A stretch of DNA of 38,050 nucleotides from a virus. The translations under genes were made by a program, and so were the position numbers. Within the stretch, counting starts at the first letter, position 1. Every line of letters begins with the position of its first letter. A model generated the notes under the pieces. That model ran no database searches. It saw only the letters and a list, made by a program, of their open reading frames with translations, and was not told the origin of the DNA. Below, in pieces: positions 11,884-22,368 of the stretch. Location of the stretch: positions 1-38,050 of IMG/VR virus record IMGVR_UViG_3300048833_000709. One strand, given 5' to 3'.

Positions 11884-11930
11884 TGCGTGCACCTTTGGGT
11901 TAGCCGCCCCGCCCCGCTTCCAAACGGGGT

Positions 11931-12005
11931 GGGCCGGACGACAGCAGGTTGGAAGACCGCAGGTGCACCACGGCAGGCCCGAAAGCCTCCCACTGCGCCC
12001 GACCC
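11931..12005 (-). ncRNA. c4: C4-type antisense RNA controlling the antirepressor
   Basis: Read on the minus strand, a closing stem pairs GGGTCGGGC (12005-11997) with GTCCGGCCC (11939-11931), nine pairs including G-U. Inside, one hairpin exposes GGTGCACC (11969-11962) in its loop and another exposes CTTCCA (11955-11950). Both recur complementarily at the antirepressor: TTGGAAG at 11924-11918 and GGTGCAC at 11893-11887, the latter overlapping the ribosome-binding region of the start at 11883. This two-site a'/b' against a/b layout is that of P1/P7/N15 C4 RNA (established knowledge). The RNA would be cut from the same transcript and block antirepressor translation. Confidence 0.82.
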
Positions 12006-12102
12006 ATAGAGACGCCCGCCGCTCAGTGTGAGCGCGGGCGCGTCGGACGCGCACCGTATCGGGCTTCCAATCCCGGACTCGCCTTTTTCGCGAGACGCTG
12101 GA

Positions 12103-16227: not shown

Positions 16228-16746
16228 ATGACGGCGTTCGGAGGATGGTGCTCGGCGGCGATCCTGTCGGTGTGCGTGGGGATGCGCGCGGCCGACCGGC
16301 GCGAGGTGTTCGCGACGCGGGCGGACGAGGACCCGCACGGGGTGTTCGCGGACCTGTATGCGATGAAGGCCTCCTGCCTGTCGCTGGAGGTGATCTACGC
16401 CCGCGACGGGCTGGGGCCGGCGGTGGGGTTCTTCGGGGTGTTCCTGCGCTCGCCCGGCGTGGGGAGCGCGGTGATGCTGGCGACGCCGCAGCTGCGCCCG
16501 ATGCAGGCCCGCGCGGTGGCGCGGCGCGTCCGGCGGCGGATCATCCCGGAGATGGTCGGGCTGGGGCTGCGGCGGGTCGATTGCCAGTGCCTCGAGACCC
16601 ACGAGGAGGCGCAGGCCTTCCTGCGCTGGTGCGGGGCGCGGCGCGGCGACCTGCGCGAGGGCGTCGGCAAGCACGGCGAGTGTTTCCGGGAGTTCCGGTG
16701 GCTGGCGCGGGAATGGCGCGCGAAGGGAGGCGAACCATGTGCGTGA
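16228..16746 (+). CDS. gp13-like internal virion protein / GNAT-like fold
   Basis: A 172-residue protein whose plan resembles the T7 gp13 family: R.AD..EVFATRADEDPHGVFADLYAM, a middle AMLATPQLRPMQARAVARRVRRRIIPE helix, and a C-terminal GKHGECFREFRW, comparable to the DGQF.LF end of gp13. Gp13-like proteins adopt a GNAT-like fold and are needed for assembly of the internal core. The start at 16228 has a strong GGAGG site seven bases upstream. A 42-residue frame just before it (16103-16231) ends in ATGA with this start and may be chance. It lies between terL and the portal, a common place for gp13 in related podoviruses. Confidence 0.65.
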   Translation: MTAFGGWCSAAILSVCVGMRAADRREVFATRADEDPHGVFADLYAMKASCLSLEVIYARDGLGPAVGFFGVFLRSPGVGSAVMLATPQLRPMQARAVARRVRRRIIPEMVGLGLRRVDCQCLETHEEAQAFLRWCGARRGDLREGVGKHGECFREFRWLAREWRAKGGEPCA

Positions 16747-16919
16747 TGCCAAAGACCCCGAAGATGGAGCCGGTCGCGGCGCCGATCCTCGCCGCGCCGT
16801 CGGACGCGGCGCGCCGCAGCGCCAGCGTCGAGACGCGGCTGAGGCGCTCGCGCGCCGGGGCCGCCGCCGACGTGCTGACCAGCCCCGAGGGGCTGGCCAC
16901 GACGTTCGGGGGCGCGTGA
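16737..16919 (+). CDS. small structural-type protein
   Basis: A 60-residue protein starting with MCVMPKTPKMEPV and containing RRSRAGAAADVLTSPEGLATTFG. It fits the short 'MC..PK.P' proteins found next to the portal in many podoviruses, which have a cysteine near the start, a Pro-rich middle and an R.G..TVLTG-like tail. A GGGAGG site lies six bases before the ATG, and the ATG overlaps the end of the gp13-like gene by ten bases. Its stop overlaps the portal start by one base (TGATG). The exact role is unknown; a tail-assembly protein like T7 gp7.3 is possible. Confidence 0.55.
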   Translation: MCVMPKTPKMEPVAAPILAAPSDAARRSASVETRLRRSRAGAAADVLTSPEGLATTFGGA

Positions 16920-18589
16920 TGGCGCTTGACGCCGCGCCGCCGCCGCGGGGCGGCGACACGCTGAAGGACGAGGTCGCCGAAGCCGTCGTGCGGCGGTGGG
17001 ACGAGCTGAGCCGCGAGAAGGCGTTGTATCATGGCGAGTGGGAGACCATCGCCACGCTGCTGATGACCAACCGCAAGGCGTTCAGCAGCGGCGGGCAGCC
17101 GGGGCAGTGGCAGCACCGCGGCGTCTTCGACAGCAGCCCGGTGATCGCGCGGAACAACCTGGCGGCGGGGCTCTACGGCACCGCCACCAACCCGGCCAAC
17201 CGCTGGCTGGTGATGGAGACGCCCGACGAGGACCTGAACGGCTGGCACGCGGTCAAGGCGTGGCTCGACGTGGTGAACCGGCGCATCCTGGCGAGCTTCC
17301 GCGCGTCGACCAGCAACTTCTACGACAGCGTCATGCCGCTCTACGGCGACATCGTCGCCTTCGGCACGGCCGTCCAGTACGACGAGCCGATCGAGGACGA
17401 GGGCCGCATCCTCGACAAGACCATGCCGCTGTCCGAAGTGGCGATCGCCGTCAGCGACGCGGGCGAGCTGACCGAGATGATCCGGCGCTTCACGCTGAAG
17501 CCGGCCGACGCGGCGCGGCGCTACGGCCAGCGGCTGCCGCAGAAGATCCTCGATCTGGCGGAGAAGGGCGACCAGACGCCCCAGCAGTTCTTCTTCGCGC
17601 TGTCGCTGTCGGACGACTATGCGCCCGGCGGCGCCTTCCGCCGCGGCATGAAGGTGGTCGCGCGGACGGTCTGCGCCGAGGGCCCGCGGGTGGTGCGCGA
17701 GGGCGGCTACTACGAGATGCCGGCCTACGCGCCGCGCTGGGACGTGGACGCGGGCGAGACCTGGGGGCGCGGGCAGGGCTATTTCGCGCTGCCGACCGTG
17801 CGGATGCTGAACCTGTCGGCCGAAGCGAACATCCGGGCGGCGCAGTGGCACGCCGACCCGGTCAACCTGGTCCCGGATCAGAACGCCCTGCGCAAGGAGT
17901 TCCGCTTCCAGCCCGGCGCGACGCTTTACGGCGGCATGTCCATGGGCGGCCGGCCGCTGGTCGGACGGCTTGACGGTCCGCGCGGGCTGCCGTTCGGCAT
18001 CGAGCAGCAGCAGGACTTCCGCGAGCAGGTGAAGGAGTTCTTCGGGTTCAGCCTGCTGACGGTGACCAACCGCAGCGGGATGACGACGGCCGAGTTCCTC
18101 GAGCGGCAGGCGGACCGATTGCGCCTGATGGCGCCGTTCCTCGGCCGCATCCAGTCCGAGTACCTGACGCGCAAGGCGGCGAGGCGCTTCGCGATCCTGT
18201 GGCGCGCGGGCCAGATCCCGCCGCCGCCGCCCGATCTGCAGGGCAAGCCGCTGGACGTGCGCTATGTCAGCGCCGCGGCGATGGCGCAGCGGAGCACCGA
18301 GGCGGCCGCGACCGCCAACCTGATCCAGAACCTGTCGCCGCTGATGGGCGTCGATCCGCGCTACGCCATGCGGCTGGACCCCGACGGGGTGGCCGAGACG
18401 CTGGCCGACGGCTTCGGCGCGCCGGCGCGGGCGCTGCGGAGCCGCGAGCAGGCCGACGCGCTGGAGCGGGCGGCGGCGGAGCAGCAGCAGGCGATGGCGA
18501 TGGCGCAGATGGCGCCGGGGCTGGCCGGCGCGGCGCGCGACATGGCGGCGGCGGGGGCCGAAACCGCAGGGCAGGGGGCGCGGCGGTGA
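16919..18589 (+). CDS. head-tail connector (portal) protein, T7 gp8-like
   Basis: A 556-residue podovirus portal. Readable features are the N-terminal helix (DEVAEAVVRRWDEL), GQWQHRGVFDSSPVIARNNLAAGLYGTATNPANRWL (the start of the clip/wing domain), QYDEPIEDEG, RGMKVVARTV, GGYYEMPAYAPRWDVDAGETWGRG (GRG conserved in this family) and a Gln-rich C-terminal crown (EQQQAMAMAQM). The dodecameric ring would dock TerL during packaging and the tail tube afterwards. The start at 16919 overlaps the previous stop by one base, and the stop overlaps the next GTG start (GTGA). Length is typical for T7-like portals. Confidence 0.88.
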   Translation: MALDAAPPPRGGDTLKDEVAEAVVRRWDELSREKALYHGEWETIATLLMTNRKAFSSGGQPGQWQHRGVFDSSPVIARNNLAAGLYGTATNPANRWLVMETPDEDLNGWHAVKAWLDVVNRRILASFRASTSNFYDSVMPLYGDIVAFGTAVQYDEPIEDEGRILDKTMPLSEVAIAVSDAGELTEMIRRFTLKPADAARRYGQRLPQKILDLAEKGDQTPQQFFFALSLSDDYAPGGAFRRGMKVVARTVCAEGPRVVREGGYYEMPAYAPRWDVDAGETWGRGQGYFALPTVRMLNLSAEANIRAAQWHADPVNLVPDQNALRKEFRFQPGATLYGGMSMGGRPLVGRLDGPRGLPFGIEQQQDFREQVKEFFGFSLLTVTNRSGMTTAEFLERQADRLRLMAPFLGRIQSEYLTRKAARRFAILWRAGQIPPPPPDLQGKPLDVRYVSAAAMAQRSTEAAATANLIQNLSPLMGVDPRYAMRLDPDGVAETLADGFGAPARALRSREQADALERAAAEQQQAMAMAQMAPGLAGAARDMAAAGAETAGQGARR

Positions 18590-18974: not shown

Positions 18975-19324
18975 ACCTGCATCGCGTCGCCGCGATCATC
19001 GGGCTGGCGCGCGCGGTCGGTCCGGGGCCGGCGGGCCGCGTCTGCGCGCAGTGGCGGGCGGCGCTGGCCGGGCGGCCGGAGCTGGCGCGCGACCTGATGC
19101 AGCTTGGGTTCCTGCTGGACGACGACGTGACCGACCGGGACGGGCGGCCGACGCCGCTGCCGGCAGACGAGCTGCAGTTCCGGGCGGGCGCCCGGGCGCT
19201 GGCGCGCGCGATCTTCGCGCGGGCCGGCGTGACCTCGGAAGAACTGATGGAGGCGGTGAGCCATGCGGAACAGGATGATCTTCTCGCCGGGCTGGTGGAC
19301 CCTGCTGAGGGCCCCGGACGGTGA
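18971..19324 (+). CDS. small hypothetical protein, third of portal-scaffold trio
   Basis: A 117-residue protein with a GTG start in an overlap with the previous stop. It is mostly helical (VAAIIGLARAVGPG, VCAQWRAALAGRPELARDLMQLGFLL, ELQFRAGARALARAIFARAGVTSEELMEAVSH). No family recognised. Its last 62 bases are shared in another frame with the start of the scaffold gene (ATG 19263), a sizeable overlap. The Glu/Ala-rich end makes a binding role possible; nothing decides. Confidence 0.55.
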   Translation: MNLHRVAAIIGLARAVGPGPAGRVCAQWRAALAGRPELARDLMQLGFLLDDDVTDRDGRPTPLPADELQFRAGARALARAIFARAGVTSEELMEAVSHAEQDDLLAGLVDPAEGPGR

Positions 19325-20354
19325 GGGGGCAGGAGGCGGCGCTGCTGGCGGGGCTGGCGCTGACGGCGCTGGCGGGGCCGCCGGAGGCGCTGCGGGCGGC
19401 GTCGGCGGCGGTGCTGCTGGCGGCGGCGCTGCTGCTGGCGTGGGCGGCGGCGCTTCTGGCGATCCGGGCGGCGCAGGCGCTGCGAAGCCGTGGCTCGAGA
19501 CCATCACGCTCGACCCGGCGCTGAAGACCGTCATCGTCAACAACGGCTTCCACAAGCGGCGCGGCGACGACGGCCAGCCGCGCGACGCGACGCTGGAGGA
19601 GGCGCTCGCCTCGACCACGCAGGCCTATGACAGCGCCCAGCGGCGGCTGGGGGTAAACCCGGCGGAGCTGCTGCGCGGGCCGGCCGAGGGGCAGTCGGTG
19701 GCCGACTGGATGAAGAAGCACGGCGACGTGTTCGGCGTGCCCGAGAAGCCCGGCGACTACGGCGTCGAGCTGCCGACGCTGCCCGAAGGCGTGACCATCG
19801 ACCAGGCGTTCCTCGACGAGGCGCTGGCCGAGCTGCACGCCGAAGGCGCGCCGAAGGCGGTGGTTCAGAAGGCGGTGGCGCTCTACGCCAAAAAGATCGG
19901 GTCGATGCTCGAGCAGGCGAGCGGCGAGGCGACGGCGGCGCGGCAGGCGATGATGGGCGAGCTGGCGCGCGACTGGGGCGCGCAGACCGAGGCGCGCACG
20001 GCGCTCGCGAGCCGCGCGTTCCAGCACTTCGCCGAAAAGGCGGGCCTCGACGGCGAGGCGGCCTCCGGGCTGGCGAAGGCGTTCGCACGCGACGCGGGCG
20101 ACGCGCGGGCCATCCGGTTCTTCGCCGCGATCGGCGAGGCGATGGGCGAGGAGCGCATGCCCGGCGGCGGCGCGCCCGGCGGCTTCGGGGGCGCGATGAC
20201 GCCGGTGGAGGCGCAGGCGCGCATGGCGACCATCAAGGCGCCGGACGGGGACTACGCCCGGGCCGCCGCCGTCGGCGACCAGAAGAAGATGCAGGAGCTG
20301 ACGGCCGAGATCGCGCGGCTGGCGCAGATCATCGCGCCGCCGAAGGGGCGCTAG
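19263..20354 (+). CDS. capsid scaffolding protein
   Basis: A 363-residue protein lying between portal and capsid. The N-terminus MRNRMIFSPGWWTLLRAPDG is followed by a long Gly/Ala-rich low-complexity linker (about 20-75), then a helical body (LEEALASTTQAYDSAQRRLGV, DWMKKHGDVFGVPEKPGDY, PKAVVQKAVALYAKKIGSML) and a Lys/Arg-rich C-terminus, which in scaffolds contacts the capsid. Place, length and helical character fit a T7 gp9-like scaffold that shapes the prohead and is then lost. The start at 19263 sits inside the preceding gene. The low-complexity linker also encodes a hydrophobic frame (19321-19524). Confidence 0.72.
   Translation: MRNRMIFSPGWWTLLRAPDGEGAGGGAAGGAGADGAGGAAGGAAGGVGGGAAGGGAAAGVGGGASGDPGGAGAAKPWLETITLDPALKTVIVNNGFHKRRGDDGQPRDATLEEALASTTQAYDSAQRRLGVNPAELLRGPAEGQSVADWMKKHGDVFGVPEKPGDYGVELPTLPEGVTIDQAFLDEALAELHAEGAPKAVVQKAVALYAKKIGSMLEQASGEATAARQAMMGELARDWGAQTEARTALASRAFQHFAEKAGLDGEAASGLAKAFARDAGDARAIRFFAAIGEAMGEERMPGGGAPGGFGGAMTPVEAQARMATIKAPDGDYARAAAVGDQKKMQELTAEIARLAQIIAPPKGR
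19321..19524 (+). CDS. nested hydrophobic ORF in scaffold linker, possible holin (doubtful)
   Basis: A 67-residue frame inside the scaffold's Gly/Ala linker, starting at a GTG that overlaps the stop of the 18971 gene (GTGA). It has two hydrophobic stretches, about 6-19 (AALLAGLALTALAG) and 27-48 (SAAVLLAAALLLAWAAALLAIR), and a basic tail, which is the shape of a small class II holin. No other holin is visible. But a GGC/GCG-rich linker read in another frame naturally gives Leu/Ala, so this may be only a shadow. The GTGA junction is weak evidence. Confidence 0.25.
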   Translation: MRGQEAALLAGLALTALAGPPEALRAASAAVLLAAALLLAWAAALLAIRAAQALRSRGSRPSRSTRR

Positions 20355-20528
20355 AGGATCCCGAGCGAAAGAACCACTCGCGAACCCGCCGATCAGGCCG
20401 AGGAAATGAAGGCCCCGGCGGGGCGGTTCGAGTAGGCGGCGCTTCCCCGCATGCGGAAGCTGCAACGACGCAGGGGGGTCGCGACAGGCCGGAGAGACGG
20501 CCACCATTCATCCCGCAGGAGAACCGCC

Positions 20529-20756
20529 ATGCCGATGGTAGAGAGCCAGTCTGACGACCGCACTGCAAACAACGCCGTCCGCCATCAGTATCGCGTGCTC
20601 AGCGATGCAGAGAAGGCGCAGATGGTCGAGCTTAAGGACCTCGCTGCCGCCTTCATCGCCGCCTGCGACCGCATCGGCCAGTCTCGCGAGTTGTCGTTGG
20701 CCAAGACGAACGCCGAGCAGGCCGTGATGTGGGCGGTCAAGCACGTGACCGCATGA
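20529..20756 (+). CDS. acb2: Acb2-like anti-CBASS (cyclic-nucleotide sponge) protein
   Basis: A 75-residue protein with a strong AGGAG site upstream. RHQYRVLSDAEKAQMVELKDLAAAFIAACDRIGQSRELSLAKTNAEQAVMWAVKHVT, in outline, follows the Acb2/Tad1 hairpin family: a short N-terminal arm with RxYR.L (Tyr21), a long helix with M..K, a loop with SREL, and a second helix with AKT...A.MW..KH. Members sequester the cyclic di- or trinucleotides that CBASS or Thoeris make to signal infection (established knowledge). Exact binding residues are not shown here. It sits between scaffold and capsid in its own gap of lower GC, as a moron would. Confidence 0.75.
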   Translation: MPMVESQSDDRTANNAVRHQYRVLSDAEKAQMVELKDLAAAFIAACDRIGQSRELSLAKTNAEQAVMWAVKHVTA

Positions 20757-20779
20757 TTGAAGCCCACCTGCTTTACCGC

Positions 20780-20809
20780 TTGCCTGATCGAAATTCGGTC
20801 ATGTAGGAT
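20780..20809 (+). promoter_or_regulatory. candidate promoter upstream of capsid gene
   Basis: TTGCCT (20780-20785) and TAGGAT (20804-20809) are 18 bases apart in the gap between the Acb2-like and capsid genes. The -35 and -10 fit partly. TTTACCG and TTCGGT half-sites like those of the repressor operators flank it. It may give extra capsid transcripts or be fortuitous. Confidence 0.4.
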
Positions 20810-20910
20810 CGCGGCCGCCGGGGAGGCCCTGACGGGTTCCGGCGACCGCGGCGACAGGGCCGCCGTCTAAGCCGCGTGAAGGCCAGGTCGGGTCCGGCGC
20901 CTGCCGGGGA

Positions 20911-20941
20911 GTCCTCCGAGAAACCCGTTTCTCAGGAGGAC
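20911..20941 (+). promoter_or_regulatory. hairpin that hides the capsid ribosome-binding site
   Basis: GTCCTCCGAGAAA (20911-20923) pairs with TTTCTCAGGAGGAC (20928-20941) through a 4-base loop, with one bulged A. The AGGAGG that serves the capsid ATG at 20950 lies in the right arm, so the stem would close the ribosome-binding site. There is no U-run after it, so translational control or RNase III-type processing fits better than termination. Confidence 0.6.
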
Positions 20942-20949
20942 AGGCCGCG

Positions 20950-21870
20950 ATGGCCATCGAACAGCTGGTCGAACAGCACCACATCATCACCTTCCAGGCG
21001 AACGTCGAGCTGGCCCTGCAGCGCATGGGTCCGAAGCTTCGGCCGTTCGTCGATTTCCAGCCCTGCCAGGGCGAGCAGTCGGCGCTGATCCGCCTGTTCG
21101 ACCCCGTCAAGTCGCAGCGCCGCACCGGGCGCAAGCCGGAGAACGTCGACAACCGCGCCGGCCGCCGCCGCCGCTGGCTGCTGTTCCAGGACCCGGTCGA
21201 GAGCGGCGAGTACATCGACGAGCTCGACATCTGGCGGCAGGCCATGGACCCCACGTCGGACCTGATCCGCGTGCACACCATGGCGGTCGGCCGCGACATC
21301 GACGAGATCATCGTCGAGGGCCTGACCGGCGAGGCCTATGAGGGCAAGCTGACGCCGACGGCCGTTCCGCTGCCGTCCACCCAGAAGGTCGGCATCCAGG
21401 TGGGCAGCTCGCCGGCGGCCGACACCGGCATGAACATCAAGAAGCTCCGCGAGGCGCGGAAGATCTTCGAGAAGAACGAGGTCGACCTCGACCGCGAGGA
21501 GCTGTTCGTCGGCATGTCGGCCGACGAGCACGACGCGCTGTTCGACTTCGTGGAGGCCACGTCGGCCGACTACCAGAGCTGGGACGCGAGCCAGCGCCCG
21601 GTGTTCCGGGACGGCAAGCTGATGCGGTTCATGGGCTTCAACATCGTCCGCTTCCAGGGCTGGAAGACGAACGCCGCCGGGAGCATCCGCTACTGCCCCG
21701 CCTGGGTGAAGCGGTCGGTCAAGCTGGGCGTCTGGCAGGACATCCGCGCGCGGATGTGGAACGACTCGAGCCGCCAGAACACCCCCGTCTTCAACATCGA
21801 CTTCGTCGGCGACTGCCGCCGGACCCAGGAGGGTCTGGTGGTCGAGATCGCCTGCAAGATCCCGGCGTAA
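20950..21870 (+). CDS. major capsid protein
   Basis: A 306-residue protein downstream of the scaffold, matching the phage capsid family common in Rhodobacter-type podoviruses (HK97-like fold expected). Characteristic pieces are VEQHHIITFQANVELALQRMGPKLRPFVDFQ, then RRRRWLLFQDPVESGEYIDELD (after a basic loop), VHTMAVGRDIDEIIVEGL, LREARKIFEKNEV and MSADEHDALFDFVEATS. No N-terminal delta-domain is evident, consistent with a separate scaffold. Translation may be controlled by the hairpin at 20911. It would build the icosahedral shell around the scaffold and portal. Confidence 0.82.
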   Translation: MAIEQLVEQHHIITFQANVELALQRMGPKLRPFVDFQPCQGEQSALIRLFDPVKSQRRTGRKPENVDNRAGRRRRWLLFQDPVESGEYIDELDIWRQAMDPTSDLIRVHTMAVGRDIDEIIVEGLTGEAYEGKLTPTAVPLPSTQKVGIQVGSSPAADTGMNIKKLREARKIFEKNEVDLDREELFVGMSADEHDALFDFVEATSADYQSWDASQRPVFRDGKLMRFMGFNIVRFQGWKTNAAGSIRYCPAWVKRSVKLGVWQDIRARMWNDSSRQNTPVFNIDFVGDCRRTQEGLVVEIACKIPA

Positions 21871-21882
21871 GGAGCGCGATCC

Positions 21883-22368
21883 ATGCCCATCGTGGACGTC
21901 AAGTCCGACGCGGTCGACCAGGGCGCTGGCGCGCTCAAGGAGCCCGTCGATCCGATCCGCTGCCGCGCGCTGCTGCGCGCGGCCTGCGGGACCGTCGCCA
22001 ACGCCTCGACCGACAGCAACGGCTCGGTCTATCGGCTGGCCACCATCCCGAGCCGCGCGATCCTGCGGCCGGAGACCCAGCTCGACCTGACGGGCTGGGG
22101 CTACGCCGCCGCCACGCTCGGCGTCGCGCGCGAGCGGGGCGCGGTGCTGACCGCCAACGGCCTGGCCGGGACCATCACCATCGGCGCGCTCGCGGGCGCG
22201 CTGACCACGCCGGTCGCCAAGTTCGGCCTGAAGTGGGGCAAGCCGCTGTGGGAGTCCTGCGGCCTGGCGGCCGATCCGGGCGGCAACCTCGACGTCGTCA
22301 TCACCACGGCGGCGAACGCGACCGGCGCCGGGGTCGCGAAGTTCGACTTCGTCTGGCAGATCGACTGA
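21883..22368 (+). CDS. head-associated protein after capsid
   Basis: A 161-residue protein starting 12 bases after the capsid gene with an AAGGAG site. It is beta-rich: GSVYRLATIPSRAILRPETQLDLTGWGYAAATLGV, then AVLTANGLAGTITIGALAG. Its place between capsid and tail tube A, and its size, suggest a minor head or decoration protein as in other podoviruses. No recognised family. It is not a T7 10B-type frameshift product because it has its own start. Confidence 0.6.
   Translation: MPIVDVKSDAVDQGAGALKEPVDPIRCRALLRAACGTVANASTDSNGSVYRLATIPSRAILRPETQLDLTGWGYAAATLGVARERGAVLTANGLAGTITIGALAGALTTPVAKFGLKWGKPLWESCGLAADPGGNLDVVITTAANATGAGVAKFDFVWQID

Follow-up and report, generated by a model that had tools for sequence, protein, structure and literature searches.

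The stretch of DNA analyzed here (the window, 38,050 nt in full) is of viral origin and contains a head operon with portal, scaffold and major capsid genes (Table 1). Between the scaffold and the capsid gene, where the original prediction had placed an Acb2-like gene, 75 codons encode the protein MPMVESQSDDRTANNAVRHQYRVLSDAEKAQMVELKDLAAAFIAACDRIGQSRELSLAKTNAEQAVMWAVKHVTA, and all of the elements on which that assignment was built (Tyr21, SREL, AKT and MWAVKH) are present in the translation. The gene, here called acb2, has its own ribosome-binding site, as also predicted. The scaffold gene occupies the position of pelagiphage capsid assembly genes, and the major capsid protein has tblastn matches to the capsid proteins of pelagiphages and phiVC8.

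Table 1. Coordinates of acb2 and of neighboring features in the window.
Feature	Position	Strand	Evidence
Portal / head-tail adaptor gene, same operon	16739..18589	+	phrog_332, E=5.3e-102
Scaffold / capsid assembly gene, upstream neighbor	19263..20354	+	phrog_3742, E=1.3e-21; phrog_458 (protease), E=3.6e-10
Shine-Dalgarno AGGAG	20517..20521	+	7 nt 5' of acb2 ATG; read from sequence
acb2-like gene, 75 aa	20529..20756	+	PF24729, predicted helices, purifying selection
Structured leader of the capsid gene, following acb2, 193 nt	20757..20949	+	RNA fold z = -2.52
Major capsid gene, downstream neighbor	20950..21870	+	phrog_3437, E=5e-56

The open reading frame is a real gene. Comparison with its nearest relative gave a pN of 0.079 and a pS of 0.39 (dN/dS ~0.15), and thus the protein is kept by selection. 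The frame is also open from position 20451, which would give a form of 101 aa; however, relatives align starting around residues 1-4 of the shorter, 75-aa protein. The protein consists of a conserved N-terminal block (residues 1-20) followed by the hairpin domain (residues 21-74). The lower GC content noted originally was confirmed, at 62.7% for acb2 and 68.4% for both flanking gaps compared to 73.4% for the window. This is weak evidence of a foreign origin, given that the capsid gene is also lowish (67.2%) and that the GC3 of acb2 is 83%.

Family Membership, Predicted Fold and Binding Residues

The proposed membership in the Acb2/Tad1 hairpin family is firmly supported. Residues 21-74 match Pfam family PF24729 (Acb2/Tad1, hairpin domain) with 67.8 bits (cut-off 27, E=9.8e-19), as do all 50 of 50 aligned relatives above the cut-off. 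A PDB search with the single sequence returned chance matches only, whereas a profile of the relatives ranked PaP2 Acb2 first (E=4e-4), followed by Acb2 homolog 43, T4 Vs.4 and Tad1. In hhalign comparisons the E-values were 8.5e-8 to PaP2 p26 and 2e-6 to T4 Vs.4, and searches of NCBIfam and PADLOC gave no match for the protein. The gene is a genuine but ordinary further member of the known Acb2 family, and a close search recovered relatives from 103 IMG/VR stretches and 18 bacterial genomes. The hairpin also matches the C-terminal end (positions 208-282 of 289 profile positions, E=4.9e-05) of phrog_717, a long phage family of unknown function, which suggests that the hairpin forms the terminal domain of some longer proteins. 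In addition, the hairpin tip is ~8-20 residues longer in some relatives (L064, L070, L072, L074-L076, L084, L098, L099, L101 and L102), in most of which R replaces W68.

The AlphaFold model of a single chain comprises a short helix (residues 9-18) and two long antiparallel helices (26-49 and 53-74), with no strands. Its mean pLDDT is 85.8, with values above 90 in the hairpin and of only 55-58 in the first 20 residues. In a comparison of the model with the PDB, PaP2 Acb2 and T4 Vs.4 ranked first, with weak E-values. The top Foldseek matches in the PDB were Acb2 chains (8h2j, 8h2x), with probabilities of 0.97-0.99 and E-values of only 0.4-0.6, and the VIA Z values of 6.2-6.5 fall within the range of unrelated helical hairpins and are not decisive. 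The fold is predicted to be Acb2-like, in agreement with the hairpin pattern noted originally.

A close counterpart is the Acb2 of the Pseudomonas phages PaP2/PaMx33 (p26; PDB 8h2j, 8h2x, 8ixz). Both proteins have the spacing Y-R-x-L-S-x-x-E-x-x-x-M-x-x-x-K (Y21/Y11, K36/K26), the same helix order, and the pairs R53/R67 and T60/T74. The product described here is 18 residues shorter, lacks ~24 residues at the hairpin tip and has 10 additional residues with a conserved motif before the tyrosine. With T4 Vs.4 (Acb2; PDB 7uq2) it shares Y8, K23-D24 and an A-K-T68 ... MWA motif, whereas the T4 protein has F82 in the place of T74, no arginine matching R53 and a longer hairpin. Acb2 homolog 43 (PDB 9ptq, 76 aa), whose structure was solved with six chains, is a similarly short hairpin with the REKSVFKTKLEEA motif in common, although the match is confined to profile positions 37-69.

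Y21, K36 and T60 align with Y8, K23 and T68 of T4 Acb2 and with Y11, K26 and T74 of PaP2 Acb2, in which K26 contacts the ligand. The distance from the tyrosine to the lysine is 15 residues in all three proteins. Y21 and K36 do not vary among 47 relatives, in which T60 shows a conservation of at least 90%. In T4 Acb2, Y8A disrupts the binding of cyclic dinucleotides, with F82 stacking on the ligand (PMC12657218), and T68M reduces nucleotide affinity (PMC12657230). The T74 found here in place of this stacking residue is also invariant in the relatives.

The sole unusual feature is the N-terminal block S-x-S-D-x-R-T-x-N-N-x-x-R-H-x-Y-R, which is conserved as strongly as the hairpin residues (R11, N14, N15, R18 and H19 are invariant in the 47 relatives). 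The 20 N-terminal residues have no counterpart in PaP2 or T4 Acb2, and the block might alter ligand choice. The protein could be a sponge that has retained the fold but now binds a different signal, such as an unusual cyclic dinucleotide or other nucleotide messenger, with the N-terminal block reading the ligand. Two protomers contribute their N- and C-terminal parts to the known pocket (PMC10419184), which would fit such a role, as would the replacement of F82 by T74. On the other hand, the known binding tyrosine, lysine and threonine are all kept, and conservation by itself does not demonstrate a new ligand; we consider a shifted signal unlikely.

Even less probable is a Tad1-like anti-Thoeris sponge that binds gcADPR, a ligand class that the original prediction had left open as a possible addition. 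The hairpin Pfam family also covers Tad1 (PDB 7uav, 8kbe, 8smd), the second-helix hairpin motif is common to both proteins, and SRE..A.T...E..MW aligns with Tad1 residues 87-109. However, Tad1 has an N-terminal antiparallel beta sheet before its two helices that is part of the gcADPR-binding architecture (PMC12043709). This sheet is absent from the product described here, which has only 75 aa and no strands in its model, and a Thoeris role is therefore not expected.

Genomic Context, Mobility and Expression

As a single query, the capsid protein found no IMG/VR relatives, and the portal protein was used in its place as the query for related phages. Most of these portal relatives have no gene between scaffold and capsid, where there is only a short leader. 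Those junctions selected as gene-free (51 portal-relative loci, some near-identical) measure 47-241 nt, with a median of 170, and about a dozen others of at least 400 nt carry other small ORFs. In L103 and L108, the slot holds small ORFs that do not encode Acb2. The capsid gene of the window starts 193 nt after the end of acb2, a distance similar to the gene-free junction lengths, and thus acb2 appears to have entered downstream of the scaffold gene and to have left the capsid leader intact.

The relatives of acb2 occur in diverse contexts. For example, the gene lies between the head-tail adaptor and stopper genes in Sinorhizobium phage Aussie, upstream of exonuclease and recT genes in a Manatee Spring podovirus, and after a run of same-strand genes in Dunaliella viridis virus SI2. 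Portal, head, head protease, terminase, endolysin and HNH families are among the neighbors at 52 loci upstream and 60 loci downstream. The closest relatives (L005-L011, 83-89% identical) have none of the tested window proteins in their available flanks, and acb2 therefore behaves as a mobile moron. It is both an additional gene at a junction that is empty in relatives and one that is present in unrelated neighborhoods, in agreement with the original reading. L083, by contrast, has acb2 in the same scaffold-capsid slot; its capsid protein is only ~23% identical, and its Acb2 (59%) has one of the lowest similarities among the 80 matches listed. Given this low similarity, the common slot may be old or may have been reached twice. 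As a separate observation, in the portal relative L186, a related podovirus, a gene for a PaP2-type Acb2 (L186:5730-6005; PF24729, 62.4 bits) immediately precedes the portal gene and represents another Acb2 lineage within this group of phages. The known genes are placed differently again, with PaP2 p26 among replication genes on the strand opposite to the virion genes and T4 Vs.4 among the vs/regB genes.

That acb2 lies in the head operon both in the window and in L083, and that many relatives are near head genes, could also be explained if the product were a small head protein with a structural or assembly function, from which the position between the scaffold and capsid genes would follow. 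The gene-free junctions of most portal relatives, the unrelated flanks of the closest acb2 relatives and the occurrence of others near recT or endolysin genes make this highly improbable.

We did not find a sigma-70-like promoter in positions 19200-22000 with a scan limited to the sigma-70 consensus; the best score in the scaffold-capsid gap of the window was 8/12 (p=0.57, same consensus). Promoter and terminator scans of the plus strand around acb2 likewise gave nothing recognizable. Across the junctions of the window and its relatives, sites scoring at least 10/12 were present in 15 of 48, compared to 2.2 expected from shuffles, and most of them begin within ~25 nt of the scaffold stop. Several relatives (e.g., L140, L127, L157 and L142) have a sigma-70-like promoter (TTGACA, 16-18 nt, TATACT or TATAAT) directly after this stop, and the phiVC8 record includes a predicted promoter and terminator in the scaffold-capsid gap. 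No such site is recognizable in the GC-rich window, so that we infer, rather than observe, any capsid-level late transcription of acb2, and the own promoter suggested originally was not found.

Two RNA features were observed in passing. A predicted hairpin at 20911-20941 (+) with ~13 pairs (GUCCUCCGAGAAACCCGUUUCUCAGGAGGAC) contains AGGAGG, at which ribosomes would bind for the capsid gene, and could restrain or time capsid translation. An Rfam search around acb2 gave nothing meaningful, while elsewhere in the window, at 11925-12011 (-), there is a full-length match to RF01695 (C4 antisense RNA; 49.5 bits, gathering score 45, E=1e-6). In temperate phages that are P1/P7/N15-like, antirepressors are regulated by RNAs of this class, and thus this phage may be temperate.

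Proposed Function

The product of acb2 is quite probably an Acb2-type sponge for cyclic oligonucleotides that is encoded by a moron and, by analogy with PaP2 and T4 Acb2, would be hexameric, and it is likely to act on CBASS signals as originally suggested. Each 75-residue protomer would comprise a short helix at the N-terminus and a hairpin of two helices. In an assembly of six, the pockets formed between them would bind the cyclic di- and/or trinucleotides that CBASS cyclases produce. CBASS effectors would then be starved of their signal, which would not be degraded. The moron would have inserted after the scaffold gene and ahead of the capsid leader, and its transcription together with the late head genes is probable. 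Counting against this reading are the Foldseek E-values of 0.4-0.6, the VIA Z of ~6, the change from F82 to T74 and the extra, low-confidence N-terminus. For CD-NTase (SMODS), the count above the cut-off was 6 in the 18 genomes with relatives, a figure that lacks a baseline and is uninformative on function.

We have little expectation that the relatives, which in bacterial genomes are mostly from alphaproteobacteria, form a distinct Acb2 subfamily whose invariant N-terminal block (R11, N14, N15, R18 and H19) leads it to recognize a nucleotide signal other than that of known Acb2, with transcription of the capsid gene giving the high copy number that a sponge needs here.

As a probable Acb2-type sponge, the protein extends a group of experimentally known proteins to a large and mostly unannotated set of phages and prophages (the 103 IMG/VR stretches and 18 bacterial genomes), and it represents a compact 75-aa form of Acb2 with a conserved N-terminus. 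The location of the gene next to that of the capsid protein points to a simple route to the bulk production of a stoichiometric inhibitor.
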